Shown: positions 2,859 to 59,877 of the stretch, piece by piece
Position numbering within the stretch: the first letter of the stretch is position 1
How the letters are laid out: each line of letters begins with the position of its first letter
Virus record (IMG/VR): IMGVR_UViG_3300018424_003600
Span: 1 to 64,000 of that record
From: a virus
DNA: 64,000 bases
Reading direction: 5' to 3' (one strand)
Program-made: the position numbers and the translations under genes
Notes under the pieces: generated by a model
What the model was told of the DNA's origin: nothing
The model's database searches: none
What the model saw: the letters and a program-made list of their open reading frames with translations, nothing else

Positions 2859-2881
2859 AATTAGGTAATCTTAGAAATTTG

Positions 2882-2889
2882 TATAAATA
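2882..2889 (+). promoter_or_regulatory. T4-type late promoter box TATAAATA
   Basis: TATAAATA is the exact T4 late promoter consensus. It lies 31 bp before the ATG of the fibre gene at 2920, with a CCAGGAG ribosome binding site in between. It is in the 61-bp gap after 2858. This is the clearest late promoter in the window. Confidence 0.7.
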
Positions 2890-2919
2890 CATATAATAAG
2901 ATATTCCAGGAGTATAAAC

Positions 2920-3999: not shown

Positions 4000-4022
4000 T
4001 CCAAATACATAATTATATTAGT

Positions 4023-4057
4023 AATCCTCTGATATATAATATGTCAGGGGATTTTTT
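4023..4057 (+). terminator. intrinsic terminator whose hairpin also holds the next gene's ribosome binding site
   Basis: The arms AATCCTCTGATATAT and ATATGTCAGGGGATT pair over about 14 positions with G-U wobbles, followed by TTTTTT at 4052-4057. This is a classic rho-independent terminator for the fibre gene. The AGGGG in the 3' arm (4046-4050) is the only ribosome binding site for the ATG at 4058, which begins directly after the T run. Confidence 0.8.
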
Positions 4058-31433: not shown

Positions 31434-32281
31434 AGAGGTACCTCATCAATAATTCTACCTAAACTAAATTTATTCATTACATGAATGTTTTGTCCTTTGG
31501 TTTTGATTGCAGTGTATTCTCCTAAATAATCTTTCTTTTCAACTAAAAACATCATTTCGTCATCTTGTAGTTTCCAAAGGATATCTTTGTCGGTTGTGTA
31601 AAGCATAGAACCCGGTAACTGAGATGCAAAACTTCCTGATTCAAAACCATTCATAATATGAATAGCAATACTAAATGCAAAGTCATTTCTAAAAAGTGAA
31701 GAATTAATTTGGTATGTTCGTTTGTAATGTGTCCATTCTTGCTCTATGTGTTGTACTAAATCAAAGAATATTTTATTAGTTGGTGTTTTTCTAAAAAACA
31801 CAACAGTTGCCCAATAAAAATCTACACTAGAATCAGTAATGTATTTGAATTCATTTTCATTTCTAACTTTTGCTATATCATTAGAATTTTTATAAAGAGC
31901 AAAATCTACATCTAGATCAAATACATTTGATAACATATTGTTAGACACAACATAATCAGTGTCCATTATAATAGTTTCGTCATAAGGAGAAAGTTCGTAG
32001 ACACTTGCACGATTACTATTCTTAAAACTTGCAGTTCTTTGAGACATAGCACCATCATGGAACAGCCTAGAGTTTGTTCCATCTGTCCAATCTAGTTCAA
32101 TTACAGTATCAAATATACTAGAATCAAAAGAACCTTTTAAATAGTCAACGCAATCTGTTGCTACTGTAGTAGGTAAATTTAAATATTTTTTTATTCTTTT
32201 TGCTAAAAAAACAGCCTGCTTAACATAGTCAATTTGTGAATTATTTTTGGCTATTAAAAATACACCTTTAGTCTTGCTCAT
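31430..32281 (-). CDS. glycosyltransferase-like protein (GT8-like, DTD)
   Basis: 283 aa. FLIAKNNSQIDYVKQAVFLA begins a GT-A type fold and IIMDTD (Asp107, Asp109) is the metal and nucleotide-sugar motif. The two tandem copies share SPYDETI-x-MDTD and the following region (FYWATVVFFRKTPTNK here, GFHYFKKS there) but diverge elsewhere, which suggests an old duplication with different specificities. It overlaps the upstream 118-aa gene by 14 bp and the downstream paralogue by ATGA. No membrane segment. Confidence 0.6.
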   Translation of the reverse strand: MSKTKGVFLIAKNNSQIDYVKQAVFLAKRIKKYLNLPTTVATDCVDYLKGSFDSSIFDTVIELDWTDGTNSRLFHDGAMSQRTASFKNSNRASVYELSPYDETIIMDTDYVVSNNMLSNVFDLDVDFALYKNSNDIAKVRNENEFKYITDSSVDFYWATVVFFRKTPTNKIFFDLVQHIEQEWTHYKRTYQINSSLFRNDFAFSIAIHIMNGFESGSFASQLPGSMLYTTDKDILWKLQDDEMMFLVEKKDYLGEYTAIKTKGQNIHVMNKFSLGRIIDEVPL

Positions 32282-39738: not shown

Positions 39739-39763
39739 TCGTGTAACCCCTAAGCATTTATAT

Positions 39764-39771
39764 TATTTATC
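39764..39771 (-). promoter_or_regulatory. T4-type late promoter box GATAAATA
   Basis: GATAAATA on the - strand lies 26 bp before the ATG at 39738, within the 37-bp gap after the 648-aa fibre gene; a second related box (TATAAATG) overlaps just downstream. The spacing equals that of the boxes before 37226 and 63350, which supports the call. Confidence 0.55.
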
Positions 39772-39775
39772 GTTT

Positions 39776-41722: not shown

Positions 41723-41723
41723 G

Positions 41724-43781
41724 TTATTGTCCTGTATAAATTATGTAATTAACGGCTAAGTATGGGTTCATTACATTTAATGCTTCGCCTATTGATGTAT
41801 CAGTCTTAATACCTCCACTTGTCGCCAATCCTTGTGTTCCGCCGCCGCCTGGTTCAATAGGCAACGTAATAGCATTACTGTCTGAAGCTTCTCCAGCAGC
41901 AACTCTAATACCATAGAATTGACCGTTAGTAACATCGCCTTTTAAATCGTGTTCGTGTTCTGGTAAATTGTCTAATTCAATATTTACACCTTCAGAGCCT
42001 CCAGTGCCGCCCATTGAATCTGCTGCAATATCAGTTACTCTATTTGCGGTTGGGCCTCCCATGTTATCTAAGCCCATTGCAAATCTACCACGTAAGTCAG
42101 GTAGTGTAAATCTGTTAACTCCGTTGTCAGAAACTAGTGTCGGATCTTTAAAATTATGTTGGATTGCTAACCACAACTCATTATAATCTGTTTTAAGAAC
42201 TTCCGAACCATCGCACAATAACCATCCTTCTGGTGCTTCTTCGCCACCATATGGCATAATTGCTCCTGCAGGAACTAATGGTATTGATTTTAAGAAGTTA
42301 CGTTTTGTAATTCTGTAAACACCTGTTGTTCCAGTTGTTCTATTTAAAAGGATTTCGTCTGCATTACCTGCATCATATGTAACATCTTTACTACTAATAA
42401 ATCCATTGGAAATACTCACATTAAAAGTTTTGCTTGTTCCGCCAGTTTGTCCGTCGAATTCAAAACTATTATTTTCTACATCACCTGTAATATTAAATGT
42501 AGTTGAGCTTGCAAGTCTATCTGCTGAGCCTGCTCTCCCTGATACTGTACCGCTTACGTTACCTTGTAGGTTACCAAAAAATGTTGTAGCATAAACTTCA
42601 TCATATTTGTTGTTAGTTGTACCAATATTTCTAGCTGCATTTTCGTCTGGAACTACATTTCCAGTATATAAAATTCCGCCAATATCTACATCGCCTCCGA
42701 TGTAAGCGTTTAGTGAAACACCTAAGCCCCCTGTTGTTGTAATACTTCCTGTTCCTATCGATGTAGATTGTTCAGTACTAGCAACTTGAATTACTCCTGT
42801 TCCGGGTTCTCCAGTTTTTGGTGCAACTTTAATATTACCTTTAACATCTAATGCTTCTTCTGGAGCACCATTGTTAATACCTACTGAACCTTCACTATTA
42901 ATAGTTACTATTGTAGGAGACAAGTTACCATTACGCATTCTTACATCAATACTAGAACCATTTGTATTGTGTTGTATTACACCTGTTTCACCGTCAATAC
43001 CAATAGTTAATTGTCCGCCAGTACCAATGCTAATTCCGTCATTTGATTTTACACTAAGTTGGTAGTTGGTTGTACTTGCTGCATTGCCTTGTAAAAAATT
43101 ACTTGCAGATACAACTTCACCGCCTACAACTAATGCTTCAGCTTTTTCAGCAATACCATAATACTTTAATGTTTGTGTGCCAACTATTGCCTCATTAGCA
43201 ATGTTCATTCCTGCACTAATACCTTGTCTAAATCCTTTGATAGATGTTTTAGGTATAAATGATTGGCTACTAATAATAATTGCAGGTTTGTCTTCAACTT
43301 TAATAGTAAGAACACTATACGTAACATCATCTGTTCCTACTATTGATTCTGCTTGTGCTCCAGTTAAAAGGCCGTCGCTGAAACTTGGGCCAACTAGCAC
43401 CCAGCCTGCGCCAGTAAACAAATAAAGCTGTTGACTTTCTGTGTTTACCCAAAGATCACCGGCTGTTGAATTTGCTACAGCAGGTTGCGAAGTTGCTTTT
43501 TTAAGTCCGCCACTAGCAACCCAATTAGTACCATCATATACCTTTAATTGATCAATTCCTGCTGAAGTATCGTACCATAATTGTCCTTCTACTGGACGAG
43601 CAGGTGCTGTATTATTTGCAAAGTTTTCTAATAGATGTAACAGGTCTTCTGCAATTGCTTGTCCGTAACCAGTAGTAAATCTACCAGGAATACTTAAACT
43701 AGTTTCTTGGTTGAGAGTATTGTCTTCAACGGTAATTGTACCTTTGTTTACAGTATCGGTATAGTTTATTGTGTATGCCAT
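41724..43781 (-). CDS. tail fibre protein with tail-collar domain
   Basis: 685 aa. It has the shared head (TSLSIPGRFTTGYGQAIAED, LLHLLENFANNTAPARPVEG, LKVYDGTNWVASGG). The tail-collar domain is at about residues 505-570 (GAIMPYGGEEAPEGWLLCDG, then TLPDLRGRFAMGLDNMG), as in T4 gp12 short-fibre and related receptor-binding proteins. The C-terminal end (AVNYIIYTGQ) is the usual finish of this domain. It starts after the 200-aa tail gene with AGGGG as ribosome binding site. It is the best candidate in the window for a receptor-binding fibre. Confidence 0.8.
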   Translation of the reverse strand: MAYTINYTDTVNKGTITVEDNTLNQETSLSIPGRFTTGYGQAIAEDLLHLLENFANNTAPARPVEGQLWYDTSAGIDQLKVYDGTNWVASGGLKKATSQPAVANSTAGDLWVNTESQQLYLFTGAGWVLVGPSFSDGLLTGAQAESIVGTDDVTYSVLTIKVEDKPAIIISSQSFIPKTSIKGFRQGISAGMNIANEAIVGTQTLKYYGIAEKAEALVVGGEVVSASNFLQGNAASTTNYQLSVKSNDGISIGTGGQLTIGIDGETGVIQHNTNGSSIDVRMRNGNLSPTIVTINSEGSVGINNGAPEEALDVKGNIKVAPKTGEPGTGVIQVASTEQSTSIGTGSITTTGGLGVSLNAYIGGDVDIGGILYTGNVVPDENAARNIGTTNNKYDEVYATTFFGNLQGNVSGTVSGRAGSADRLASSTTFNITGDVENNSFEFDGQTGGTSKTFNVSISNGFISSKDVTYDAGNADEILLNRTTGTTGVYRITKRNFLKSIPLVPAGAIMPYGGEEAPEGWLLCDGSEVLKTDYNELWLAIQHNFKDPTLVSDNGVNRFTLPDLRGRFAMGLDNMGGPTANRVTDIAADSMGGTGGSEGVNIELDNLPEHEHDLKGDVTNGQFYGIRVAAGEASDSNAITLPIEPGGGGTQGLATSGGIKTDTSIGEALNVMNPYLAVNYIIYTGQ

Positions 43782-43792
43782 TTATATACCCC

Positions 43793-44395
43793 TTACCCTG
43801 CTAAACTCTGAACTCTTACAGTATAGTCAATTTGTATTAAGCGGTTTAACGATTTTTGCACAGGGTGGAAAATTACATGAGTGATTAATTTACCTTCTCC
43901 GTCCTGTGAATAACTACGTAACCCTAACTCGTCAAATACATATGGACTATCAGTTGCAGATGCAGTATCAAACGCCTCTTGACCGTTTGGCTCGCCATAA
44001 TCAAGCAAACAACTTACAACAATATCAGTATAATTTGTACCTGCAACGTGTCTTGTTTCTAACTTATTACGTGCAGGGTCTGTATTGTTTACGCTTCTGT
44101 CGTCTACAACTTTAGTGTAAGTTTGATTGTACAAACTTGCGTTTGTGCCAGTTGAATTTGGTGTTAGGTATGTAATAATACCAGTTGGATCGACGTTTGT
44201 ACCGCCGTTACCAAAACTCATCTGGTAAATGAATCCTTGTCCTTCGTTTGCCAAACTTTCTGCAAGCGCAATACTCATATTTTCATAATGAATTGCGTTG
44301 CGTTTGTCAACGTAGACTTTTTGAGATTCAGGGTCATATATTTTTATATGTCCTTGAACTAGTACTCCGTTTGTATCTTGCATAATGTCACTCAT
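43793..44395 (-). CDS. tail/baseplate-associated structural protein
   Basis: 200 aa, beta-rich. NGVLVQGHIKIYDPESQKVY and SMALAE-like helix, then FIYQMSFGNGG and FDELGLRSYSQDGEGKLITH, recur in a conserved structural protein located between baseplate and fibre genes in marine T4-like phages; I cannot give it a T4 number. A late promoter box lies 18 bp upstream inside the stop region of the giant gene. It is followed by the fibre genes after an 11-bp gap. It may connect the fibres to the baseplate (inference from position). Confidence 0.6.
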   Translation of the reverse strand: MSDIMQDTNGVLVQGHIKIYDPESQKVYVDKRNAIHYENMSIALAESLANEGQGFIYQMSFGNGGTNVDPTGIITYLTPNSTGTNASLYNQTYTKVVDDRSVNNTDPARNKLETRHVAGTNYTDIVVSCLLDYGEPNGQEAFDTASATDSPYVFDELGLRSYSQDGEGKLITHVIFHPVQKSLNRLIQIDYTVRVQSLAG

Positions 44396-44412: not shown

Positions 44413-44420
44413 TATTTATT
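44413..44420 (-). promoter_or_regulatory. T4-type late promoter box AATAAATA
   Basis: AATAAATA on the - strand overlaps the TAA stop of the giant gene and lies 18 bp before the ATG at 44395. The spacing is shorter than for the other boxes, so the leader would be about 12 bases long. Confidence 0.45.
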
Positions 44421-47400
44421 CTGGTAGCTCAGATGTTCCTGCACGTAAGAATCTTGCAATTGAATTTTCTGTATTTCCTAGTGTAGTTCCTTGTGTTGTC
44501 CACGCTCGACCTACTTTTTTAACAACTGTAATTCTAGAATTTTCTGCAGGAGTGTTTAATAAAGTAATACTATTTGTATCTGCATCAAAACTAAAATCTG
44601 CACTAATTGTTACATCGCCTTCTGGACTATCTAACGCAAGCGTTGGATCAAAAACTTCAATTGTAGTTTTACGCTGTCTTGTGCCGCCAACAAATACTTC
44701 AATTTCATTTATAGAATTAACATCGTAATCTATTTCAAAATTGTTTGTATTTCCGTCAGCTATTGTGTTATAAGCTAAAGTTGTATCTCTGTATGGAACG
44801 GTTTTACTTATGTTTTGATCAAATACATTTGTTCCCGCTGAGTGTACTTCTTTAACTCCTGTTCCTAGTGTACCTCTACGTAATTGACGTAATGTATTAT
44901 CTTCTTTTACAAAGTACTCTATACGTTCGCCATTTATAAAAATTACACCCGGTAAATTTAAATCTTTGTTAGGGGTTGATAGCGTAGATCCGTCAACAAC
45001 TTCTATACGTAAATCATAATAATTTAAATCTTGTGCAAGTGTAGTTGCTGCACTATCAAGTCGTTTAAAGTGTGTTCTGTTAAGCATATCTTTAAACTGT
45101 CTAAACGCAAATTTAGGAACACTTACATTAGCAGCAAAATGTAATATATCTATTACATCGTTTGCTTGTGGTGTAACTGTTAATCTAACTTTTTGTTTAT
45201 CATCTGTTATATAATAATCTACACTCGGAGTTAACAATTCTCCATTTAAAGATACCCAAACATACTGTGCATCTACAGCAGGTTTACGTAGTTTTATTTC
45301 ACCTAGTGTTAATCTGTTGTATGTTACATACTCTACTTCGCCTGCATATGTAGTAGTTCTTTCAACAACATCATAATTTATTCTTTCTAATTTTAGAATG
45401 TCATGATTTGTCATTTGAATAATTTCAACAGTTTCTTGATCAGCTGGCGGTGTATCTAATATTACTGTTGATCCAATAACACGATATTCACCATCTGTTA
45501 TAACATAGATATCTAATAAATCTCCAGGGGTACCAATATCATCTGGAAGTACAATACTACTGTTTGCAATATCAAATCTCCATTGTACCGGAGTTTCAAT
45601 TAATTTTCCATTTAAATAAACACTAACATCAGAAACATCTAAACTTCCTTGTGGTTGTTGGAAAATTTCTAAAGCATATTCTCTTTGATTGTTTTCTGGA
45701 ATTTCAAACTTTGTATTATAACCAGCGTTTAAAATTCTGTTTCCAACTTTTACAAGTATGTTATGTTGAGTTGGAGCAGCATAAAGAGGTGTTGACTGAA
45801 TATCATACTCTATACTAACACCATCACCTACAAACATACTTGACGACATTTGACTATAATTTACAACATCGCTGTTTCCAAATAGCGTAAAATTAATTAC
45901 ACTATTAAGATTTGGTGGTGTGTCAAAACGTATAAACGCTCTTGTTGAATCATTAGTGTTATAAACTGTTACGTCTTGCTGTACTCCATTAATATTAGCA
46001 TAGCCAGACATTCCTTCTACAAATTCAACATTAGTTTCAAAGTCTGTTTGTTCTCCGTCTCCAGTAAATTTACCATAATCAAGTATACTTTGAACACCTT
46101 GTGCAACTGCAACTATGTTAAGTTCCTCACCTCCAATTAAAGACGGAATAGTTATAATATTTGAACTCCAGTTAATTGTAAACTCAGAATCTGCAAGTAT
46201 TACATTGTCAACTTTTACAATTACTGCTGATATATTGTTAGGAATAACTCCTAGATTATAGTTAAGTGTTCCTGGAACTGCACGATAACTTTGAGAATAT
46301 ATTACGCCTTGTCCGTCGCTGTCTCTTGTATAAACTTTAATATCAAGTGTATCAAGAATTTGTCCAGGTACTAATTCTTCAGGACCACCACTAGTTGTTG
46401 GCGTAACAAATCCATCGCCGTCAACAATTATATCCTCAGCATTAAGTCCTGTTGCTGTTGAATATTGTAAGTCGCCGCCTTCTAATTGCGTATCATAACT
46501 ATCAGGGTCAATTTTAACACTGCCATCACTAGTAATTTTTCGAATAGCAAGTACGTCTCCGTCTAACATCAAAATATCTCTTGATGCTAGATCAATTGTA
46601 TCAGTTACTCCGTCGCCTGTAATGCTATTTGTAATAGCGTGTACATTTGTCGGTGTGCCTGCATCGTAGTCAGGATCATCAATTCTTACACCATTTTTAT
46701 ATAAGTTGTAAACAACTCCGTCTTCTAATGGTGCAGAAAGTTGAACCGAAACTGTTGAACCATCTGCTGTAAAAATTTCATCTTCAAATGTATTAACAAA
46801 AGAATCCCAATTATCAGTATACCAAGGTTGACTATCCCATCCTGCAGAACTTGTAAAGTCAAAACTTGTTACTTCAACTCCACCATAGTCAATACCTGTC
46901 ATTAGCTGCGCTAAATCTTTACCATACATTCCTGCTGTTGGTGCATATGCTAAATTAATTCTGTCTTGTGCAGTTAGCATACTTAATGGTTTATAATATT
47001 CTACACGAATACTTGCTCCAAGTGCAGGAGGTGTAGTAAATATAATTTTTCCTTGATGTCTAGTATATGTCTTACTATTGTCAATAATATTTTCGTATGA
47101 ATATTTGCTTCTTAATTGTAATACATCATCAACATAAATTTTAACTTTCTTTTTATCAAGGTCCATTGGCCATTCTAAGAAGAAACGTGTTTCAGAATTT
47201 GTTCCTACAAAAGTCTCGGTTTCTGCTAACGACTCTATAGTAAATGTTTTAGAAACACGGTCAAACTTAACTTTAACTCTTGTAGATCTTACAGATCCGT
47301 TGCCTAATACCGCAGTTGCTTTAGCAGGAGTTCCGGTATCTAGTTGTGAACCTTCAATTACTACTGTTGGTGCGCTTGTATAGCCTGTTCCAGGATTGGT

Positions 47401-50400
47401 GATTTCAATCTTTGTAATTTTTCCGTAACCTAAGTATGCCTTAGCTGTTGCGCCTGTACCATTGCCGCCTACAAATTTAATTATAGGTTCATAAGTATAT
47501 CCGCTTCCTGTATCACCTATATCAACTTTGGTTATTTGATAACCTAAATTATTCTTCCAGTTGTTTCTTGGTGGAGTTTCTAAATCAAAGTTTACATCTT
47601 GCAAACTGCCATCAACAATAATAGCTTTACTCGGTTCTATTTTTCCAGTCAAACTATTATACTTAGGCGGTAAATCAAAATCAGTTACTACACTGTTGGT
47701 TTCTTCAGTTACAGTATATTGACTTACAAATTCTCTTAATTTAGTTTTATAAGGTTTAAATTCTTCTACAAAATCTTGATAGCTTTGTAAATTATCATTA
47801 TTGAATGTAAGATCTTTTTGTCCTAGATCGCCTCGATTGTGTTTTGCTTTTACAAAACTAGTTTTAAATACCCAATCTGCTGCTGGCTGTTCAGCCAATA
47901 CATAACGTAGTGTAGAAGCAAAAAGTTTATTATATTCTACTTCTAAATCACCAACAAATAATTTATCACGTATAGTGTTAAGAATTATTCTTAGTTCAAA
48001 TGCAGGATTGCTATCATAAAAATAATTGTCAAAACTTCTATTACTATAACCTATAGTATTTTTACTAAAATTATACAATGACTCATTAAATTCTATGGTA
48101 CCATTTTGTCTACCAATAGTTTTATAATTAACAGTATAATCTTCTGTATCTTGAGTATCTATTTTTTCAAGTAATAACCAGCCGCCTGAGCCAATATTAT
48201 TAATTTTAATAACATCGCCAATGCTATCAGATAGCGTAGGTAACTGATAAGAACCATCAATGTTATGTTTAATGTTTGTAAACTGATTATAACCAGTAGC
48301 GTACCAATCTTTATAATCCCAATAAAGTTCTACGTTATATCCTTGAACTGATATTCTATTCCATGATTGGCTTTCTATATTCCAGCTATGTAGTGCCCAT
48401 TTATCCTGAACTTCACTATCTGCTGTTACAAGTGCAGTAAATGGTCTAACTGTTATAGTAGTGTTATTATCATATCCATAACCGTCATTAGTTATTTTAA
48501 CATTTGTTATTTGTCCTAAATTATTAAGAGTAATATCAAAATCTGCATCAAACCCTTTGCCGTTTATTTTAAATGAAGGTGCTACTTTGTAACCTCTTCC
48601 AGAATTAATAATATTAATTCTTGTAATTCTTCCATTTACTATCACAGGCTCTAAAATTGCTTGTGTAATTTTACTTGTACTAATATATTGTAATTCGCTA
48701 ATAGAGTCAACTGATATATCGTATTTTTTACTAATTAGCGTTGGCGCTTCGTCTTTTGCTGTTAAATCAGATATGTCATACTCATCAGTAATTAGACTAT
48801 TGCCTAATACAAAATTAACTCTTTCAATTGTTTGTTTAAGAGCTTCGATTCTATTAACAAACATACTTTGTCTAGGACGACTTTGTACACCATAACGATT
48901 TTTTACTGTTATATCAGGATCTGGAACTAATCTAGAATTTTCATCAAAGCCAATTAAACTATCAAACCATTTGCGCTCAATATCAGCATCAGGTTTAGAC
49001 GACTTGTCGTTTTCTGAAAGCAATTTATATTGACTATGTAGATTTTGATTTTCTTTTGGACCAGTTGAATATTTAATGTTAAGAACAACATCATCACCTT
49101 CAATAACATCGTCGCAGTTGTTTAAAACAAATTTGTTATTTGTTAGTAATGATAAAAACTTATAACCTTGTGTTCTAGGATTTGCAATAAGTGCTGCAAT
49201 ATCAAATATTGATAAGAATCTGTCTTCCATTACTGGAACTGTTCGTTTTGATTCTACCCAGTAGTAGTACTTGTTTTTAAAAGTTTTAGAAACATCATCA
49301 TATATAATTCTTGTAGAGAATTTTTCATCTCCATACAAAGATGTACCACTTATATCTTGTGATGCACCTTCTGGAGTATCTGCAAGAGTATCCCAAGAAC
49401 TTGGTAGGTAGTCACTTTCAACCCATTCATATATGTTAATAGTTGCGTTAGGTAATAATTTATTCCAGTTATTTTTTTGGAATGTAGTTGAACCTTGGTG
49501 TGCATTAGCAAATTTAGCTGTAGAAATATCCCACCAAACTTTACCAACATATTCGTCTGTCCACACTCTGTCAGGATCAACATTATTATCTGTAAGCTCT
49601 CCTGTGTTATAAAGCGCAGGATCGTATGGTGCTTTAAATGCTATTTCTTGATCAGCTACTCCTGGGATTTTTCCTTGTACAGGGTCTACATAATCAACAT
49701 AAGTGATAATTTCATTCTTTCTTTTATTGTAAAGAAATGCTCCTCTAATTTTAGAAACATCTACAGGAATAACATTTTGACTTATTGCTTCCCAAGCAAA
49801 TACACCATTACCTTTTCTAAAGTCTAACATAATGCCTTTGTAGTCGCCACTGTATTGTTGCGGCATTCCTACATAAACATGATTGTTATTTGAATATACA
49901 TTTTCGCCAAACATACGTTGTGACAACGAATATCTAAACTGTTCAGAATATATTAGTGTATCTTCTAAATTTTCGTAAACATAAACAACACCTTTATCAA
50001 GTATAATATTATTAAATGTAGTAAACTCAGCATCAAATGTTGTAGCAGTTCTTTCTTTAGATGTAGTATCTAATGTATAAGAGTTTTCATCTACTCTATC
50101 TGTATATGTGTCGAAACGTGTTGGAATTTTTTGATCGCCATTTAAACTTGATATAACAAGATTGTCTTCACCAAAGTTTAAACTGTAACCAAACCCTTCG
50201 CTTTCTTCATTATTTGGCGGCGTTAATGTTTGTGTTTGTACAAATTTTCCGTTAACTTGACTATAGATATAAACAATACCTTGATTAATCTTTTTGTCGT
50301 CATTATACGGTGCGCCTATAGCAATTTTTCTGCCATCTGGACTTAGACTAACAACATCTGCAAATCCTTCAGTATTATTAGGAGAAGGTATAACTTGATC

Positions 50401-53400
50401 TACCATATACTTGTCATCTACTTCCCTGTAAACTACAATAGATTTGTGTATAGTACTGTCTGTTTCCATTTGCTTACTAGTAACAATTAAAACATTACCA
50501 TCGTCACTAATATCGAACGCCTCACTAAATTGTTCAATATTTTGTATAGGATCAAATACTTCTTCATTATAAAAATGTGTTGATGTAAGATTCGGCAAGT
50601 AACCTAAGTAATCAATCTTAGTGCTTATTTCACTCCATGATGCATTTGAATTTGAAGGTACAGGTGCATTAACATCAATATTAGTATTAGCAGACCAAAG
50701 TTTGTTATCGTAAACAACTATATTACCAGATTTATAAGTATAAGAATTATCAAAATCTCCTCGATAATTTGTATCTTGGCCGTAACGCCAACTAATGTTA
50801 GTCCAATATATAGAATCTTGTATTACATTTTGTGTTTCAAGAATTGCTTTGTTTGCACGGTAGTAATTATCTTTATAAATTACAATATCGCCTATGTCAT
50901 ATGCTGTTAACTGGTACTCTCCTTTGAAATTATCTGACGGTTTTGTACCGTGTCTAACTATTTCAATAGTTCCTGGATATGTGCGTCTGCCTATTGAATC
51001 GTCTAATAATTCTTCTGTTGTGTCAACGCCCTTAGAGCCAATCATTAATGTATAATAATTATTATTTTGAGTAATTTTTACTAAATTACCAAACTGTCTA
51101 CCAGCATGTCTATATTCTGATACAAATATATTTTGTAAACGATATTCGCCTGCAACTCTTCTAAAAATAGCAACTGCGCCTTCGTTTTCTAGTCCAGTTT
51201 TTGCAACTCCGTATTTGTCTGCAGGAATATTGTAAACTTGAGTATAATCTTTGTTTAGACTGTAAGGAGGATTAGCTAGACGTTGTATTCCAGATTCAGT
51301 ATTTTCGTTGAAGAACCAATATTCTTCGTCAACAACTTCTGGTTGCGTAACAATATTTAAATTGCTATCATTTGCAAATACTAATAATTTACCTACTAAA
51401 TTTGTACCTAGTACAATATCATTATTAATATCTTCAACTGTACCAATTACTCTGTCAACATCGTTAACACCTCTAATGTTTGGATTAACTGTGTTGTTAG
51501 TTCCTGCTTTTCTACGGATTTCGTATCTTCCAATATTTGATAATTCATTCCAATTTCCTGACAACACTTTTACATAAACTCTAATACTATTAAAGTTTCT
51601 TCTCATAAACACAACTTCGGCACTACTTGTTGTAGTTGAAGTTAGTGCTAGTCCGCCTTGTCCGTCTCTTGGAATTTGTACATCTTCTAAAATATCACCA
51701 ATTTGTGGTTCATATGGGAAGCCTTGGAAGTCAAATTCTGTAAGTTCAAAATCTATGTATCCATCCCAAATATCAGTTATTGTATGTTTTTTGTTTAAAA
51801 ATTCGTATGTGAAAGCAGTATTACTTAAATCAATATTTCTATTATCTAAATCATACAATCTAAATTCGTATTCTTCTCCAACTTGTACTATGTTACTAAA
51901 TTCTTTTCCTACTCGAGCAATCCATCTATTATCAAGTTGCGGAGAACTAACTCCGCTAGTTCCGTCTGCGCCAGCCGGGTCACCAGTATACGAAAGACTT
52001 GACAAGAAGCTCGCTTGGTTTTTATTAGTAATGTATGGGCCAACGGCTGCAATTGTATTTTGAATATTGTAATAATAGTTTACTGGACGTTGCGAGTCAG
52101 CAGGTCTAACATCTGCATAAACTAGACCTTTACCTGAATCATAATATCTTCCATTGTTTGAATATGTAAATCCAGTTTCAATATACCAGTAACCTGCAAC
52201 AGCATCTGTTATAGAGTACGTTGATTCTTCTGTATAATCACCAATTAAATCGCCTTCGGCATTGTAAGCAGTACCAGAAATATCAAATACACCATTTGTG
52301 TTTGAAACATAAATTACTGCACTATCACGCCTTGTTCCAACATATACAATTTCCGCTGCGCCGGTGTCTGTAGTAAATGTATCGCCTACGTTAGGCAATG
52401 TAACAAATGTCTCAAGGAAAAATACATGATCTACTTTTTTAGCAATAGTATGTTCTTGATTTAACCAATTAACAGTTATTTCAGCAATTTCATTATCAAA
52501 CGGATATTGAATGTCTGAAGTATTGAATGCATAACTTACTGTATTCCAATATAAGTTTACTAAATCGCCCACTGCTGTACCAAGGTACATATCTTTAGGA
52601 GCTCTTACTAGAATGTGATCAACAGTATTGTTAGGTAATCCAGGATCGCCTGCAACTAATAAATTTAAACTGGTACTATCAGCATCTTGCTGTGATGCAA
52701 TATTAATATATGTATCAAATGTAGTAAACGGTTGATTGCCTATTTGTGGTAATATTTCTCTATTAGCTTTCCATAGTGTTTCTCTATAACGAACAATATC
52801 ACCTTTTACATAAGTCTTATCAGATTGAAAGTCAAAAGTTTGTTCATTTGTATTTGAATCTGTTTTATAAGCCAATTTAGTTTTAATATTACTTGCATTA
52901 GGAACACCTACTACTAAGTATTCACCATCTGGAGAAACATCTATACTTCTACTAAAGTCTAAATTATCTAATGCAAAATAATCATCATTGTCAAGTTCAA
53001 TTTCTTGAGACAAGTTTAAATTAGATGCTTCTCTACTTCTACGGTAGAAATAGACTTTTCCGTTTACATCATTTGGAGAAGCTACAAATACATTGTTGTT
53101 ATCTTTAGTTACAGCAAGACTATCTGTAAATCCATGAGTGGTACTATCGTACTCGCTAGGATTGACTATTGTTTGCTCATTATTGTAAACAGAATTATTT
53201 TCTAATACTGCCCAAGTGCTATTATAGTCATCTATCCATATTTTTTGATCTTGGTAAAATTCTTGGTTTGTTAAAGAATTAACTCCGTTAAGAGAATCTG
53301 TTCTAACAGTCCTTAACTTAACAACTGAAAAGTTTTCTTCTTCAAAATCTAAAACATCATCAGTTAGTTCATTACCAGCAAACGGAACTTCAATTTTTAT

Positions 53401-56400
53401 TTTATTAAGTTCTGCAGAAATAACTTTGTAAAATCCATTAAGTAAATATTCTTCTGCATGTTGTAATCCAATATAGTCTCCTTCAGTAACAATAGAAGCA
53501 GACCATCTATCTAGTGTAAGTTCTCCAATTCCGTAACCTGGATCTGCATCTTCAATCAAAGAAACTGTAAATTCAGATGCATATGCTCCTGAACGAACTA
53601 CTTGCATTACTGTCCAGTCATTAGACTCTGTGTTAGTAATCCAAATATTATCTCCTAAATTTAGTCCATTTACATTAACTAAAATTAAATTTGAAATATT
53701 ACCTATAGTTGTTGCAACATCACTTTCTTTAACATATCCGCCTGTTTTAATATATTCAGATTCAATATTTTTTACAGGAAGAGGTGCATGATCGTAATCT
53801 TCCGGTTTGTCATAAACTTCGTTTGGTAAAATTCTATATATCTTGTCATAGTTAGTAGCAGGTAATGTATTCAGCAATTCAAATGCTTGAGGCGATTCTT
53901 GAACTTTTTCTTCTTGAATAATGTATTCTACTTGTTTAATATCATCAACAGAACCATATCTTCCAACTTGTAATGCCCACTCTTCATAAAATTCTAAATT
54001 ATCTGTAGTCTTACCTAGAGCATCAAACAATTTAGTAAAGACATTCATAGTTCCTTTTTCTGCTATAGCTCCGCGATAAAACTTAAACTGACTTACATCG
54101 TCGTTAATAATGTTTGCAAGATACTGACGCTTTTGGTAACCAATTAGATGCTGAGCCATTCTTTGTTGTTCAATATCAAAACTATCGCTATCTAAATCAT
54201 AAAAGTCTGTAAACTGAGTAGTTCTGTAATCAAAGTTTGTTAACAACTGAGATTCTGGTTTCTCTGAAAGCAAGTACCAATCATTAGAATTAAAATTTTG
54301 TGATCCCGAAATATTTTTTGATGCAACATAATAATATTGTTTGTATTTTACTATGTCGCCAATTGTATAATCTTTCCATTGTGTCCAGTCAGTAAATGTT
54401 CCGTCGTCATACAAGAATCCCGGAATGTTTAATCCGCCATTCCAGTTATCTGATCTATAGCCACTAACTTTAATTCTTTCTTGTCTATAACCAGTTGATG
54501 GTCTATATATGATATCGTTAAACACTGTAGTATTATCTAATAACACAACATGTTCTTTTTGAATCAAAGGTAATGATGCATGGAATAAACCCTCGTCGGT
54601 ATTTGTAACTTCAACACCAAAACTGTTTTCGTTTCTAAGTAAACTATTAAATTCTGAATCTAAAAATAAACCGTCTGCTTTCAATATTGAATATCCATAA
54701 AACGGATCTTTAATATCGTCAACAACATAAAAATCTTTTTGGAATTCTAATATATTTGCAGCAGGACTTAGTGTAATAATACCTCCAGAAGCCCAACCTT
54801 GGGTTGTCCAGAACATAAATTCTTTTGCGCTTTGATTCCAATTGTTTACTTCTCCAAAGCCTTCACTCACATCGTCAAATATAAATCCAATATCTGTTAG
54901 TCTTTCGTTATACCCTAAAATAAAATCTACAACTTCTTGTACTGTTTTTAATCTAGTACCATATTCTAAAGTTTTTACAGATGTTTTATCAAAATTCTTT
55001 TTAAACTGTGCAACTCTGCCGCCTTCAATTGGCAAGGTTGGTAACTTAGAAAGATTTTCTAAAGTAAAACTTACTCCAGTTTCGAAAGATTTTGTAACTC
55101 TATAATACGAATTATTGTGTATTATAATTTCGCCTGCTGTATAAAGTGTATTAGAATCCCAAGGAACAACTGCTTCGTTTATTCCTCCTACCGTTACAGT
55201 AGAAGAAGATGAACCTTCTCTAGCTTCATAATATTCAAAATAAGGTTTTTCTAAATTGTAACCTCTAAGTACATAACCAACTTCGGCTTTTTCTACAATT
55301 AATCCACTGTATATTGCTAGTTGCGAAGGACTACTTGTGTTTAAGAAAATTTGGTAATTTTCTTGTGGTACAAAAATTCCATCTTGTGTAAGATTTTGTG
55401 TAGGTGATCTGCTATCAAGTATAAGATTGAATTTTGGTTTACTAGTAAAGCCTCCAATTTTTATACCAATTTGATTTGATATATTTTTAAGATTAGTTTC
55501 ATAACTTGAATAAAGTGTTAAAATATTACTTGCTACTAGATTGTAAACATAATTTACTAAACCAGAAGTTAACACTCTTGAATCTGAGTTGTAAGTATTT
55601 GGTAATAATAAATTTTTTGTTTCGATAGGTTTATTTGTTTCTTTATAAACCCATTGATTAGCTTTGTTTTTATTAATTCTAGATATATCAAAACCTAAGC
55701 CCATTACTTTTGCAGGCTTGTTTAATAGATAAGATGTTAATAGTGCAAACGGATATTCTGAACTTCTTCTCCATGCATTTTCTGTAGGAGAATAATCTCC
55801 AAAACTAAAGTTTCTAGACGTCTGCTGGATGTTAAATCCGTTAGCATATCCTATTCTAGTAGGAGTTACTAATTTTCCATCACTACCAACAGGAATATGA
55901 TTAGTTAGCCCAGGACGAGCATAATCTAAATTTATTCTAACGTTGCCGGGTTCTGCAATCTTACCGGCTTCTAAATCTTTCCACAACACCAAGTTATCAC
56001 CAGTATACGGCGCAGGACCATATACTTCATCCCACCAACTTGGTTTTATTGTGATGCCTAACATTTCCCATGGGCATGTGTGCGGACGATCTGTATCAAA
56101 CGCATAAACAAACAATGATCTCCAAAATCCTGGATTTTTATTTCCGTTTGGTGTTTTAGTATCGGAGTAATTAAATGTCCAAGCATTATTTCTATCGTAG
56201 AATGTATTGTTTGTATAACTTGTATTAGTTAAACTAGTAGTCAGCCATTGTTGGAAATCTCCAAGTAATGTTCTATTAATTTCATTTCTACTAAATTCAG
56301 TTTCTCTATGATCTCCTGGAATAAAATTATGAATGTCTAATCTATCTGTCGAATAATCAGCTTTAATGTTATTGAATATTCTTTTTTCTAATTCCAGTAA

Positions 56401-59400
56401 TAGTTCGTCTCTGTAATCTTTGTATGCTTTAATAAAGCTACCGTCATGTCCTTTAACAAAAGCAACGCCTAAAGGATACTCGTTAATTTCAACATTATCA
56501 TAATGTCCGTAAAAAGAACCGGTTGCAGGCATATAGAAAATTTTGTTTAAACCAACAAATGTAATTGTGTTAGCAGTATCATTTGCATCTGCATCTTTAG
56601 CAGCTTTTCTAGTTGTATATATAGGATAAAACCAGCCTCTAGTTCCTTTGTTGCTGCCTGATTCAGCTTGTCCGTAAATTTTAAATGGACCAGTTTCTGA
56701 AGGTTCATCTACTATAACTGTATCATCAATGTATAGTTCTGGTTCATATTTAGGATAAAGTCCTAACTTTGTAGGTGTTGGAGGAACAAATGATCCGTCA
56801 GTATTATCATACTCATAAATTTCTATCTTGTCATCTTCGACTTGTCCTGCATCAATACTTACATAACCTGTAGAGTCAAAATTATAATCTCTGCCATGTA
56901 TTAATTGTTCTCCGTTCAAGTATACTAAAACACTTTTTACAGACAAACTAGATAGATTAAAAGGAGAACTTAAAGGATATTCTTTTGTTCTAGGATCTAA
57001 AACTGTATATTCTATAATATTAGTGTTGCTATATGATAGCATATCACTAAAGTAAAACGGCTGAGTTTTTACTTTATCTTTATTAATTTCTTCTAATAAT
57101 TTATCAACATGTACTTTAGTAGTTCCGTCATACCCTAAACTTAGAGCACTTTCTAAAAATACTTTTTTAAATCTTGAATATTCATTTTTAGAATATTTTA
57201 AGGCTTTTATAATATTAGTTTCTTTATTTGTTATATGATATAAAGATAAATTTATCGGTCCGCTGTGTTTTACAAAACGCTTACCAAATCTATCTAAGTT
57301 TCCTAAATCACGCAAATTACTTGAGCCTAAAAACACACCTTTAAAGTTTGGTAATTCTTCAAGCATAGTGTCAACATGATCAACTACTTCACCTAAGGTA
57401 AACTCACTTACATCCTCGTTTAGTGGATTGCGTTCTAGGTTATGTGGGAACTCATAATGTCCATTACTATTTTTAGATGTTTTAGATCTTGTTTTTATTT
57501 TAACAATATCTCCAGAATTTAAATTATCATAAAATCTAACATATGCAATTTTGTTTATTCTGTCAAGTTCATAATCTGTTAATTTAATTTGTATTTTATT
57601 ATTAACATAAACTACAACATATAAATCATTTAAATCTCCAGAATTATTATAAACATCTATTGCAAAATTATTATTTTTTATGTCTGTTACATCGTATTGT
57701 CTAACAACATATTGTTTACTTTCTGTAGGAATGTTACTGAAAGCATTTACATAAGTAAAGTCCGAAAGTGTTTTGTATTTTTTTAGGTAGCCAGAACTAA
57801 TATCTTGAGATATAATTTCTGTTCCTTCTTGATATTCAAATGTATCGTTTAATAAATCAAAGTTAAAAAGTATATCACTCGAATTTTCAATAGTTCTGTA
57901 ATTTAAAGGAAATCCTAACTCTAAATCATTAGTACCTTCACCTAACTTATATGAAAATAATTTAGTTCCTTTAAAGGTAGTAGATTCATAATAAGTTTCG
58001 TCAGCAAAACTATTATCGTTTACATCACAAACTTCAAATAACGGAGACTGGTTTCTTTGAGTTTTTTCTTGTGCTTCTAGCCAGCTTCCGCCGTGATAGT
58101 GATAACTTTTTCCTGCATTTTTTACACCACTAGTTACTAGTATAGTTTCTAAATCTTGCGGTTCAGTATCATCAGTTTCAATTAATGCAATTTGTTTATT
58201 ATTACCAATTTCAATAAATTTAACTTGATAAATTTTTCCAGATACTAAAATATCAGTATCTGCTACAAAAAGAATGCGCATGCCTTCTGCTAAATCAATA
58301 CCGTCGATATTATACCCTAATGCTCCTTCAATTGTACTAAAAACATCTTTTGTAAAAGTATCAATTAAATCAACATCTTTTTTAGCAAAACTACCAAAGT
58401 TGTTTAATTTTAGTCCTGCTTCAAATTCAATAATCGGACGTTTAGCTCTTTTGCTTTCGTCAATATTTTCAGGTAAATTATTAAATTTAAAACTATCTTT
58501 TAAAACATCTTTATGGAACCATTTATTATAACGACTCCATGCGTTTCTATCTTTACTTGCTCTATTAATAATAATATAATCTGGTTCAGTTGCTGAAGCA
58601 GTAGCATCAGAAAAAGGTAATGTATCAAATTCTTCACTATCAAATGGAACATAACGTGCTTCTGTATATGCAGCAGGAATAATTAAATCTTGATCTTTGA
58701 TTAATTTAATATTTTCTCCTACACCTTCAACATACCAATTATTTTGAGCATAATAAGCAGGTTCAACATCGCCTTGGAACTTAATCTTCATACCGTTGGA
58801 CAATTCAACTCCGTTTGCACTTAGATATGTTTTCTTTCCTAAGATTTCGTCAGTAACATTTAAGAAAGCATTTTCTTCAATGTCATAAATTTTAATTAAT
58901 CCGCTAGTGTCAATTGAATTCTTGCTAACATAGTATAATCTATTAGGTGCGTTAAATGGAATTGTAAATTCAATTGTACCTTTTTCAACATATGCAACTG
59001 CAACTTCTTCACCTTCTTCACCTAATTTGCGTATTCCGTCAGGATAAAGTGTTGAAACGTTTTCATCATCTTCAAAAGTAACACTGCCGCCGGAAGGAAG
59101 AACAATAAAGTCTCCTTGATCATATTCATTGCCATATAGATCTGCTCCAAATAGTCCGTCAGCTCTTATTCCTTCTGTTCCTGCTGTTAATATTGCACTA
59201 CCTGGAGTAAAACTTCTAGTAATTGCAAATGCTATTGGATGTCCTGGAGTGTCAATATCAAAACGATAAGTTTGTCCTCTATAAAGTTTTAACGATGGAT
59301 TTCTAGTCAATCCGTCATTAAAGACATATGCTTTATTATCTCCTTGATCTTCAATAGTTACAGAATACGTACTAACAACTTCTCTACTTTGTCCTCTAAC

Positions 59401-59877
59401 AGGAATGCTAATAGGACCGTGCGGTAACCAATAATACTCACGGAAGTTTACAAACTTATCCCAATCTATACTTGGGTTCCAACTATAAGTTTCTTGATTA
59501 TTTAATCTACTATGGTTTTCTATATTTGCACCAAAAACATTTAGTTGTCCAAGATAGTCATTATAGTCTTTATAAAAAGTAACATTATCATACAGATCTT
59601 TAACTACTACGCTAGGTTCTAGTTGATAATCTTCTCTTGTTTTATTAACATCAGCAACATAATTGTCAGTTGACTGATGTGCTTTTGCTGTCCTTCTACC
59701 ATAATATCCATTTAATTTTTCAGCAACACCCGGTTGGATCATTTGATCCATTGTAGCTTGTAAAAACTTTTGGTTTGCCGTACTCCTAAAAAATCTAGGT
59801 AAAAAATCTGCAGAACTAATTTTATTATTTCCGCCTGGAATTGGCAAAGCCGAATCTTGTTGAGTTTTCTTAGCCAT
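44416..59877 (-). CDS. giant modular tail/baseplate structural protein
   Basis: 5153 aa in one open frame of 15.5 kb, next to gp6 where T4 has gp7 (about 1030 aa). The first ~150 residues (SADFLPRFFRSTANQKFLQA, FREYYWLPHGP) resemble the start of giant structural proteins of marine T4-like phages. Five short repeats with Y-x-x-G-x-I/V-V-x-Y/H (near residues 1575, 1835, 2355, 2995, 3045, for example YTIGDIVKYKQYYYVASKN) resemble carbohydrate-binding CBM5/12 modules. Propeller-like repeats (VSPDGEYLVVGVPNAS, LSPDGRKIAIGAPYND, about 2250-3350) follow the FG-GAP style. GxGYTxAP-type repeats lie near 3756-4176 and ING-ERI/RRGTLGTG near 4980-5015. It is translated by TAATG coupling after gp6. It probably spans or decorates the baseplate and binds surface glycans (inference). 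Confidence 0.75.
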   Translation of the reverse strand: MAKKTQQDSALPIPGGNNKISSADFLPRFFRSTANQKFLQATMDQMIQPGVAEKLNGYYGRRTAKAHQSTDNYVADVNKTREDYQLEPSVVVKDLYDNVTFYKDYNDYLGQLNVFGANIENHSRLNNQETYSWNPSIDWDKFVNFREYYWLPHGPISIPVRGQSREVVSTYSVTIEDQGDNKAYVFNDGLTRNPSLKLYRGQTYRFDIDTPGHPIAFAITRSFTPGSAILTAGTEGIRADGLFGADLYGNEYDQGDFIVLPSGGSVTFEDDENVSTLYPDGIRKLGEEGEEVAVAYVEKGTIEFTIPFNAPNRLYYVSKNSIDTSGLIKIYDIEENAFLNVTDEILGKKTYLSANGVELSNGMKIKFQGDVEPAYYAQNNWYVEGVGENIKLIKDQDLIIPAAYTEARYVPFDSEEFDTLPFSDATASATEPDYIIINRASKDRNAWSRYNKWFHKDVLKDSFKFNNLPENIDESKRAKRPIIEFEAGLKLNNFGSFAKKDVDLIDTFTKDVFSTIEGALGYNIDGIDLAEGMRILFVADTDILVSGKIYQVKFIEIGNNKQIALIETDDTEPQDLETILVTSGVKNAGKSYHYHGGSWLEAQEKTQRNQSPLFEVCDVNDNSFADETYYESTTFKGTKLFSYKLGEGTNDLELGFPLNYRTIENSSDILFNFDLLNDTFEYQEGTEIISQDISSGYLKKYKTLSDFTYVNAFSNIPTESKQYVVRQYDVTDIKNNNFAIDVYNNSGDLNDLYVVVYVNNKIQIKLTDYELDRINKIAYVRFYDNLNSGDIVKIKTRSKTSKNSNGHYEFPHNLERNPLNEDVSEFTLGEVVDHVDTMLEELPNFKGVFLGSSNLRDLGNLDRFGKRFVKHSGPINLSLYHITNKETNIIKALKYSKNEYSRFKKVFLESALSLGYDGTTKVHVDKLLEEINKDKVKTQPFYFSDMLSYSNTNIIEYTVLDPRTKEYPLSSPFNLSSLSVKSVLVYLNGEQLIHGRDYNFDSTGYVSIDAGQVEDDKIEIYEYDNTDGSFVPPTPTKLGLYPKYEPELYIDDTVIVDEPSETGPFKIYGQAESGSNKGTRGWFYPIYTTRKAAKDADANDTANTITFVGLNKIFYMPATGSFYGHYDNVEINEYPLGVAFVKGHDGSFIKAYKDYRDELLLELEKRIFNNIKADYSTDRLDIHNFIPGDHRETEFSRNEINRTLLGDFQQWLTTSLTNTSYTNNTFYDRNNAWTFNYSDTKTPNGNKNPGFWRSLFVYAFDTDRPHTCPWEMLGITIKPSWWDEVYGPAPYTGDNLVLWKDLEAGKIAEPGNVRINLDYARPGLTNHIPVGSDGKLVTPTRIGYANGFNIQQTSRNFSFGDYSPTENAWRRSSEYPFALLTSYLLNKPAKVMGLGFDISRINKNKANQWVYKETNKPIETKNLLLPNTYNSDSRVLTSGLVNYVYNLVASNILTLYSSYETNLKNISNQIGIKIGGFTSKPKFNLILDSRSPTQNLTQDGIFVPQENYQIFLNTSSPSQLAIYSGLIVEKAEVGYVLRGYNLEKPYFEYYEAREGSSSSTVTVGGINEAVVPWDSNTLYTAGEIIIHNNSYYRVTKSFETGVSFTLENLSKLPTLPIEGGRVAQFKKNFDKTSVKTLEYGTRLKTVQEVVDFILGYNERLTDIGFIFDDVSEGFGEVNNWNQSAKEFMFWTTQGWASGGIITLSPAANILEFQKDFYVVDDIKDPFYGYSILKADGLFLDSEFNSLLRNENSFGVEVTNTDEGLFHASLPLIQKEHVVLLDNTTVFNDIIYRPSTGYRQERIKVSGYRSDNWNGGLNIPGFLYDDGTFTDWTQWKDYTIGDIVKYKQYYYVASKNISGSQNFNSNDWYLLSEKPESQLLTNFDYRTTQFTDFYDLDSDSFDIEQQRMAQHLIGYQKRQYLANIINDDVSQFKFYRGAIAEKGTMNVFTKLFDALGKTTDNLEFYEEWALQVGRYGSVDDIKQVEYIIQEEKVQESPQAFELLNTLPATNYDKIYRILPNEVYDKPEDYDHAPLPVKNIESEYIKTGGYVKESDVATTIGNISNLILVNVNGLNLGDNIWITNTESNDWTVMQVVRSGAYASEFTVSLIEDADPGYGIGELTLDRWSASIVTEGDYIGLQHAEEYLLNGFYKVISAELNKIKIEVPFAGNELTDDVLDFEEENFSVVKLRTVRTDSLNGVNSLTNQEFYQDQKIWIDDYNSTWAVLENNSVYNNEQTIVNPSEYDSTTHGFTDSLAVTKDNNNVFVASPNDVNGKVYFYRRSREASNLNLSQEIELDNDDYFALDNLDFSRSIDVSPDGEYLVVGVPNASNIKTKLAYKTDSNTNEQTFDFQSDKTYVKGDIVRYRETLWKANREILPQIGNQPFTTFDTYINIASQQDADSTSLNLLVAGDPGLPNNTVDHILVRAPKDMYLGTAVGDLVNLYWNTVSYAFNTSDIQYPFDNEIAEITVNWLNQEHTIAKKVDHVFFLETFVTLPNVGDTFTTDTGAAEIVYVGTRRDSAVIYVSNTNGVFDISGTAYNAEGDLIGDYTEESTYSITDAVAGYWYIETGFTYSNNGRYYDSGKGLVYADVRPADSQRPVNYYYNIQNTIAAVGPYITNKNQASFLSSLSYTGDPAGADGTSGVSSPQLDNRWIARVGKEFSNIVQVGEEYEFRLYDLDNRNIDLSNTAFTYEFLNKKHTITDIWDGYIDFELTEFDFQGFPYEPQIGDILEDVQIPRDGQGGLALTSTTTSSAEVVFMRRNFNSIRVYVKVLSGNWNELSNIGRYEIRRKAGTNNTVNPNIRGVNDVDRVIGTVEDINNDIVLGTNLVGKLLVFANDSNLNIVTQPEVVDEEYWFFNENTESGIQRLANPPYSLNKDYTQVYNIPADKYGVAKTGLENEGAVAIFRRVAGEYRLQNIFVSEYRHAGRQFGNLVKITQNNNYYTLMIGSKGVDTTEELLDDSIGRRTYPGTIEIVRHGTKPSDNFKGEYQLTAYDIGDIVIYKDNYYRANKAILETQNVIQDSIYWTNISWRYGQDTNYRGDFDNSYTYKSGNIVVYDNKLWSANTNIDVNAPVPSNSNASWSEISTKIDYLGYLPNLTSTHFYNEEVFDPIQNIEQFSEAFDISDDGNVLIVTSKQMETDSTIHKSIVVYREVDDKYMVDQVIPSPNNTEGFADVVSLSPDGRKIAIGAPYNDDKKINQGIVYIYSQVNGKFVQTQTLTPPNNEESEGFGYSLNFGEDNLVISSLNGDQKIPTRFDTYTDRVDENSYTLDTTSKERTATTFDAEFTTFNNIILDKGVVYVYENLEDTLIYSEQFRYSLSQRMFGENVYSNNNHVYVGMPQQYSGDYKGIMLDFRKGNGVFAWEAISQNVIPVDVSKIRGAFLYNKRKNEIITYVDYVDPVQGKIPGVADQEIAFKAPYDPALYNTGELTDNNVDPDRVWTDEYVGKVWWDISTAKFANAHQGSTTFQKNNWNKLLPNATINIYEWVESDYLPSSWDTLADTPEGASQDISGTSLYGDEKFSTRIIYDDVSKTFKNKYYYWVESKRTVPVMEDRFLSIFDIAALIANPRTQGYKFLSLLTNNKFVLNNCDDVIEGDDVVLNIKYSTGPKENQNLHSQYKLLSENDKSSKPDADIERKWFDSLIGFDENSRLVPDPDITVKNRYGVQSRPRQSMFVNRIEALKQTIERVNFVLGNSLITDEYDISDLTAKDEAPTLISKKYDISVDSISELQYISTSKITQAILEPVIVNGRITRINIINSGRGYKVAPSFKINGKGFDADFDITLNNLGQITNVKITNDGYGYDNNTTITVRPFTALVTADSEVQDKWALHSWNIESQSWNRISVQGYNVELYWDYKDWYATGYNQFTNIKHNIDGSYQLPTLSDSIGDVIKINNIGSGGWLLLEKIDTQDTEDYTVNYKTIGRQNGTIEFNESLYNFSKNTIGYSNRSFDNYFYDSNPAFELRIILNTIRDKLFVGDLEVEYNKLFASTLRYVLAEQPAADWVFKTSFVKAKHNRGDLGQKDLTFNNDNLQSYQDFVEEFKPYKTKLREFVSQYTVTEETNSVVTDFDLPPKYNSLTGKIEPSKAIIVDGSLQDVNFDLETPPRNNWKNNLGYQITKVDIGDTGSGYTYEPIIKFVGGNGTGATAKAYLGYGKITKIEITNPGTGYTSAPTVVIEGSQLDTGTPAKATAVLGNGSVRSTRVKVKFDRVSKTFTIESLAETETFVGTNSETRFFLEWPMDLDKKKVKIYVDDVLQLRSKYSYENIIDNSKTYTRHQGKIIFTTPPALGASIRVEYYKPLSMLTAQDRINLAYAPTAGMYGKDLAQLMTGIDYGGVEVTSFDFTSSAGWDSQPWYTDNWDSFVNTFEDEIFTADGSTVSVQLSAPLEDGVVYNLYKNGVRIDDPDYDAGTPTNVHAITNSITGDGVTDTIDLASRDILMLDGDVLAIRKITSDGSVKIDPDSYDTQLEGGDLQYSTATGLNAEDIIVDGDGFVTPTTSGGPEELVPGQILDTLDIKVYTRDSDGQGVIYSQSYRAVPGTLNYNLGVIPNNISAVIVKVDNVILADSEFTINWSSNIITIPSLIGGEELNIVAVAQGVQSILDYGKFTGDGEQTDFETNVEFVEGMSGYANINGVQQDVTVYNTNDSTRAFIRFDTPPNLNSVINFTLFGNSDVVNYSQMSSSMFVGDGVSIEYDIQSTPLYAAPTQHNILVKVGNRILNAGYNTKFEIPENNQREYALEIFQQPQGSLDVSDVSVYLNGKLIETPVQWRFDIANSSIVLPDDIGTPGDLLDIYVITDGEYRVIGSTVILDTPPADQETVEIIQMTNHDILKLERINYDVVERTTTYAGEVEYVTYNRLTLGEIKLRKPAVDAQYVWVSLNGELLTPSVDYYITDDKQKVRLTVTPQANDVIDILHFAANVSVPKFAFRQFKDMLNRTHFKRLDSAATTLAQDLNYYDLRIEVVDGSTLSTPNKDLNLPGVIFINGERIEYFVKEDNTLRQLRRGTLGTGVKEVHSAGTNVFDQNISKTVPYRDTTLAYNTIADGNTNNFEIDYDVNSINEIEVFVGGTRQRKTTIEVFDPTLALDSPEGDVTISADFSFDADTNSITLLNTPAENSRITVVKKVGRAWTTQGTTLGNTENSIARFLRAGTSELPE

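Follow-up and report, generated by a model that had tools for sequence, protein, structure and literature searches.

A 64,000-nucleotide stretch of DNA from a marine, giant-type bacterial virus (positions 1 to 64,000 of IMG/VR virus record IMGVR_UViG_3300018424_003600; hereafter, the window) encodes on its minus strand a giant protein of 5,153 residues. We consider it probable (about 60%) that this giant is an oversized baseplate wedge protein at the gp7 (BW3) position of a jumbo-type myovirus, most likely present in one copy per wedge. The source record is 75.6 kb long and is probably a fragment. The original prediction, made from the letters of the DNA, had described a single 15.5-kb frame of 5153 residues without giving its strand, and we found this frame to be exact: it begins with ATG, contains zero internal stops and encodes a protein with a computed mass of 582,010 Da. 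The same frame is present in contigs from other metagenome assemblies. One of them, IMGVR 3300017964_001331, carries the 5,153-codon frame, spans both ends of the giant at the same length and is 100% identical at the N-terminal as well as the C-terminal locus. A frameshift or assembly-fusion artefact was thereby ruled out. More distant relatives in IMG/VR have frames of >4,300 amino acids that are stop-free within the fetched DNA.

A giant, probable virion protein directly behind gp6

On the minus strand, the genes follow one another in the order gp25-like, gp6-like, giant, a 200-amino-acid protein and then fibre-like proteins, one of which has a collar domain (Table 1). The stop codon of the gp6-like gene overlaps the ATG of the giant by one base, and the identity of this neighbour, which the original prediction had named as gp6, was borne out by its matches to phrog_10646 and phrog_219. 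Because the gene directly after gp6 in T4 is gp7, the giant occupies the gp7 slot. The same slot contains gpI in P2, a 4,454-amino-acid frame annotated as gp7 in the cyanophage P-HM2 and a 5,195-amino-acid frame in the cyanophage P-SSM2, both cyanophage frames lying directly behind gp6. We found no second gp7 candidate adjoining gp6 in the window.

Both halves of the giant match phrog_10938 (E 9.5e-248 and 3.3e-75), so that the profile extends over most of the protein. In Rak2-like jumbo phages this family is represented by giants of 3,326-4,555 amino acids, termed 'virion structural protein'. Searches of isolated phages with tblastn retrieved homologs with 24-32% identity in Rak2-like jumbo phages, PA5oct-like phages, Atu_ph07, Phosso, SCTP-2 and Vibrio 2.275.O. 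The gp25-gp6-giant order recurs in the annotated Rak2-like phages, PA5oct and Atu_ph07 that we examined; the genes next to the giant of SCTP-2 carry no functional annotation. Scans of IMG/VR returned 442 relatives of the N terminus and at least 579 relatives of the core. That the giant is a virion protein, as had been proposed, is supported by mass spectrometry of the particles of three relatives. The PA5oct homolog, gp355, is present in virions according to its record note (electrospray ionization tandem mass spectrometry). CBB_236 was detected in CBB virions with 21 peptides and 7.7% coverage (PMC5259590), and gp245 of phAPEC6, a 382-kDa protein that we equate with the giant because of its size and its position behind the wedge protein gp244, and not on sequence grounds, was detected with 17 peptides (PMC7247149).

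Each wedge of the T4 baseplate contains one copy of gp7, which gives six copies in total (PMC3004832). The periphery of contractile-tail baseplates is formed by the gp7/BW3 protein, and receptor-binding proteins usually attach there (PMC10811340), as exemplified by Vibrio phage XM1 (PMC10457771). By analogy with T4 gp7, we infer one copy of the giant per wedge, and six copies would amount to 3.5 MDa. The conserved core, including a gp7-like helical segment with a KGT motif, would contact the gp6 dimer. The remaining chain, to which an integrin-type beta-propeller and five folds of the carbohydrate-binding module (CBM) 5/12 type belong, would spread at the baseplate rim, where it may serve as a platform and spacer carrying the fibre proteins encoded just downstream. 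The giant would thus do the job of gp7/BW3 with a much longer chain, which is the simplest account of these observations.

A tentative link to gp7 through cyanophage giants

The N-terminal core of the cyanophage gp7 giants matches residues 728-825 of T4 gp7 (hhalign, 4.2e-9). We compared the giant with a profile of this cyanophage core built from 77 sequences; six alignments supplied 268 scan windows, of which about half were reversed. The segment at about residues 1910-1972, which carries FYRGAIAEKGT, stood out (P 0.0012 in the 300-residue scan and 0.00046 in the 140-residue scan) and was the only part of the giant to align with the core. The four top scan windows, which are not independent because they contain the same residues in two alignments, all overlapped residues ~1840-2060 at the same template position, scoring 33.1, 31.0, 28.9 and 27.9; the best other scored 25.0. 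The K and G of the KGT motif are invariant in 70 diverse members, and this segment ranks with the best-conserved regions of the giant. Its alignment with the cyanophage gp7 core is suggestive, not proof. A match between residues ~2485-2550 and the second gp7 domain was not used, as similar beta-modules recur in the giant. A further case of a large domain within a wedge protein is the YHYH domain of P-HM2 gp7 (PF14240, E 8e-27).

Several results weigh against gp7 identity. With P about 0.0005-0.004 per pair, the link to the cyanophages is weak, and it is confined to one short segment. Direct comparison of scan windows of the giant with T4 gp7 by hhalign gave nothing significant; this negative carries little weight, because the gp6-like protein of the window, used as the positive control, also gave a weak match to T4 gp6 (P 0.009). 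A P2 gpI profile landed on the KGT motif, yet scored no better than control scan windows. Neither Pfam PF09684 (Tail_P2_I) nor PF23786 (Baseplate_wedge) matched this record, although the absence of PF09684 is uninformative because this family also misses T4 and the cyanophages, and a Pfam scan of the KGT segment in the 70 members gave chance matches only. We modelled residues 1060-2060 with AlphaFold (1,001 residues; predicted local distance difference test (pLDDT) 84, predicted template modelling score (pTM) 0.72), and a Foldseek search of the PDB with this model found no solved relative besides the CBM, and no gp7. The corresponding search of BFVD returned mainly homologs. In addition, PHROGs places phrog_10938 in the category 'head and packaging'. 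High divergence among T4-like phages has been noted for T4 gp7 as for other large structural proteins (Sullivan et al. 2010, PMC3037559). The proposal that the giant takes the place of gp7 is partly supported, by the gene slot and by a weak profile link via cyanophage gp7; homology to gp7 we regard as likely but unproven.

The missing direct homology to gp7 or gpI, and a modelled core (pLDDT 84) with no solved relative other than the CBM, would also fit a peripheral baseplate protein in the gp7 gene position that is not a gp7 homolog, that is, an independent rim or fibre-adaptor protein, with the core wedge role performed otherwise. However, among all scan windows the highest-scoring link joins the KGT motif to cyanophage gp7, and the window offers no alternative gp7 candidate beside gp6; we therefore consider this explanation possible but unlikely.

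If the giants are gp7 homologs, many abundant marine and jumbo myoviruses build the outer part of their baseplate from a single enormous mosaic chain, which would change where fibre docking and the coupling of receptor binding to contraction should be sought. Several hundred IMG/VR contigs carry phrog_10938-type giants, and cyanophages have giants in the same slot. A broader version of the gp7 assignment, which we put forward only tentatively and think doubtful, is that the jumbo-phage and cyanophage giants at this position form one gp7 superfamily that has repeatedly taken up whole domains. One chain of 0.4-0.6 MDa per wedge would then replace much of the gp8, gp10 and gp11 periphery of T4, with the propeller and CBM folds as internal scaffolding and fibre docks, and the giant would rank among the largest single-chain baseplate components known.

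Mosaic architecture and the CBM/propeller block

Aligned with Rak2-like homologs, the giant is conserved at residues 1-200, 400-2050 and 3400-4450, whereas residues 200-400, 2050-3400 and the C terminus mostly are not. Within the marine clade, mean pairwise identity was 76% (residues 1-200), 63% (400-1560), 73% (1880-2010), 58% (2200-3360) and 61% (3400-4300). Part of the N-terminal insert (302-359) resembles residues 1743-1802 of P-HM2 gp7. The C-terminal region is conserved within the marine clade and mostly unlike that of Rak2-like isolates, with one patch in common with PA5oct; DGTxxTF-type repeats in the C-terminal part were not supported. Judged from these alignments, the giant is a mosaic of conserved cores and a clade-specific propeller/CBM block. 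Sequence and fold searches with residues 1060-2060 and 2190-3380 found no giant of this kind among solved structures.

Consistent with the prediction of at least five CBM5/12-like repeats, Pfam, leave-one-out profiles, structure profiles and Foldseek agreed on units of this type. PF02839 scored above its cut-off in the first half of the giant. With a leave-one-out hidden Markov model, the five units scored 8.2-21.3 bits, each above its own shuffle set (best of 200 shuffled proteins, 3.4-9.4 bits). In each of the 21 marine relatives compared, four or five units occupy corresponding positions. Rak2-like homologs have nothing at the position of unit 2, which makes this unit, at least, an insert. 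A profile search of solved structures retrieved chitin deacetylases and the domain of chitinase A1. The units resemble the CBM5/12 of chitinase A1 (1ed7) and of the deacetylase DA1 in sequence profile (E 3e-4 to 1e-5), and the model of residues 1060-2060 contains the fold of the chitin-binding domain 1ed7 (Foldseek probability 1.0, template modelling score 0.74). Unlike those of chitinase A1 and DA1, the putative CBMs of the giant are isolated units embedded in a tail protein.

The FG-GAP-like repeats of the original prediction were recovered in part. One repeat exceeds the PF14312 cut-off, and the remaining blade motifs are indistinguishable from shuffles by sequence alone. We nevertheless keep the FG-GAP reading because of the fold: a model of residues 2190-3380 (pLDDT 86, pTM 0.71) matched integrin-alpha propellers with a Foldseek probability of 1.00 and E about 1e-7. 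The giant shares with these propellers the fold and the one Pfam match; in contrast to them, its propeller is interrupted by long inserts and CBM units, and identity in the structural matches is 8-13%. Of the GYT-type repeats, four motifs are present, as two pairs (3752/3791 and 4116/4155), and two of the four exceed shuffles, one of these marginally. Residues 4115-4204, around the second pair, also match P-HM2 gp7 (BLAST E 1e-4).

The same folds had led to the proposal of a glycan-sensing belt around the baseplate; on this reading the propeller and CBM repeats would attach to sugars on the host surface and so set off the baseplate. In its favour are the integrin-type propeller, the homology to the binding domains of chitinase and deacetylase and a Trp conserved near the C-terminal end of units 2, 4 and 5. 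By contrast, the CBM/propeller block is only a little less conserved than most of the core (58% against 61-63%), unlike a receptor-recognition hot spot, and comparable CBM units were not detected in Rak2-like isolates, where Pfam gave sub-threshold matches only, despite the homology of their cores. CBM5/12-like folds also occur elsewhere, namely at residues 79-118 of Milano gp124, inside its tail-binding module (1-175), and in the baseplate of the Anabaena injection system. That the block is conserved, that only one clade has it and that Milano gp124 contains the same fold favour structural docking over sugar sensing; a glycan-sensing belt is not supported, and we regard it as improbable. The giant also cautions against inferring sugar binding from CBM5/12 matches in tail proteins unless binding is tested.

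A head, collar or whisker component, to which the PHROGs category and the many fibres that CBB and phAPEC6 bear along tail and head might point, is still harder to reconcile with a gene that lies inside the wedge block directly behind gp6 and has cyanophage counterparts annotated as wedge, and we consider it highly improbable.

Surrounding genes and comparison with known giants

Table 1. Positions of the giant, its regions and its neighbouring genes in the window
Feature	Position	Strand	Basis
gp25-like baseplate wedge/sheath initiator, 145 aa	63411..63848	-	phrog_261, phrog_43
gp6-like baseplate wedge protein, 1,157 aa	59877..63350	-	phrog_10646 and phrog_219
Giant virion structural protein, 5,153 aa, phrog_10938	44416..59877	-	Profile match
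Conserved N-terminal region, residues 1-200	59278..59877	-	Alignment
Insert, residues 200-400, largely missing in Rak2-like homologs	58678..59280	-	Alignment
Conserved core A, residues 400-1560, HDGS and PWEMLG motifs	55198..58680	-	Alignment
CBM5/12-like unit 1, residues 1569-1614	55036..55173	-	Pfam, leave-one-out
CBM5/12-like unit 2, residues 1829-1884	54226..54393	-	Leave-one-out
gp7-like helical segment, residues 1910-1972, invariant K-G of KGT motif	53962..54150	-	Weak profile link
Clade-specific block, residues 2200-3360: interrupted FG-GAP (integrin-type) beta-propeller with CBM and beta-module inserts	49798..53280	-	Alignment, model
CBM5/12-like unit 3, residues 2348-2403	52669..52836	-	Leave-one-out
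CBM5/12-like unit 4, residues 2986-3040	50758..50922	-	Leave-one-out
CBM5/12-like unit 5, residues 3040-3096	50590..50760	-	Leave-one-out
FG-GAP repeat, residues 3171-3205	50263..50367	-	Pfam (PF14312 above cut-off)
Conserved core B, residues 3400-4300	46978..49680	-	Alignment
GYT-type repeat pair 1, residues 3752-3831	48385..48624	-	Motif
GYT-type repeat pair 2, residues 4116-4195, common to P-HM2 gp7	47293..47532	-	Motif, BLAST
C-terminal region, residues 4450-5153	44416..46530	-	Alignment
200-aa protein, phrog_11259	43793..44395	-	Behind giant in marine relatives
Tail collar/fibre protein, 685 aa	41724..43781	-	PF07484

Genes similar in size to that of the 200-amino-acid protein lie close behind the giant in PA5oct (where the product was detected by mass spectrometry), SCTP-2, Vibrio 2.275.O and Phosso. 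Three consecutive fibre-like proteins (38251-43781) have a common N-terminal domain (phrog_15511, phrog_14394), as if on one shared dock. A 1,498-residue protein with immunoglobulin-like sequence (32730-37226; I-set, phrog_2155 virion structural protein) is encoded in one gene run with the tail proteins. Two adjoining open reading frames of ~280 codons (30591-32281), located downstream of the tail-fibre genes, look glycosyltransferase-like by eye and matched no Pfam family. At 4058-27106, at least six radical SAM genes within ~22 kb (5749-7227 -, 16006-17274 +, 19130-20509 -, 21101-22138 -, 22105-23151 - and 25832-27106 -, the last with SPASM) are intermixed with nucleotide-sugar genes (an epimerase at 4058-5008 and a UDP-glucose dehydrogenase at 23821-25047). 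This looks like a sugar- or peptide-modifying cluster, which is unusual for a phage.

The giant is a further member of the known giant proteins of jumbo phages and cyanophages, and not a new glycan-sensing device. Its size, slot and mosaic nature are already known from those phages. What is new is the marine-clade combination of five CBM units with an integrin-type propeller that is interrupted and, tentatively and on profile evidence, a connection between the Rak2-type giant and gp7 by way of the cyanophages.

With the phrog_10938 giants it shares homology over residues 1-2050 and 3400-4450, the gp25-gp6-giant order and relatives detected by mass spectrometry, whereas it is ~600-1,800 residues longer, carries the marine-clade propeller/CBM block and has a different C terminus. 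The cyanophage giants (P-HM2 gp7 and P-SSM2 PCMG_00114; phrog_2885, 'baseplate wedge subunit') are of the same size class and occupy the same slot. They also have some of the same small modules, namely the GYT pair, a phrog_460/22827 module and a weak CBM-like unit, in addition to the weak KGT-core match. However, there is no end-to-end homology, and the gp7 core, N-terminal in the cyanophages, would lie near residue 1940 here. The following gene differs as well: it is gp8 in P-HM2, whereas the 200-amino-acid protein of the window had no match to T4 gp8 or gp9 in profile comparison. T4 gp7 likewise directly follows and overlaps gp6 and has the wedge position, but it is 1,032 amino acids long and has no significant direct profile match to the giant.

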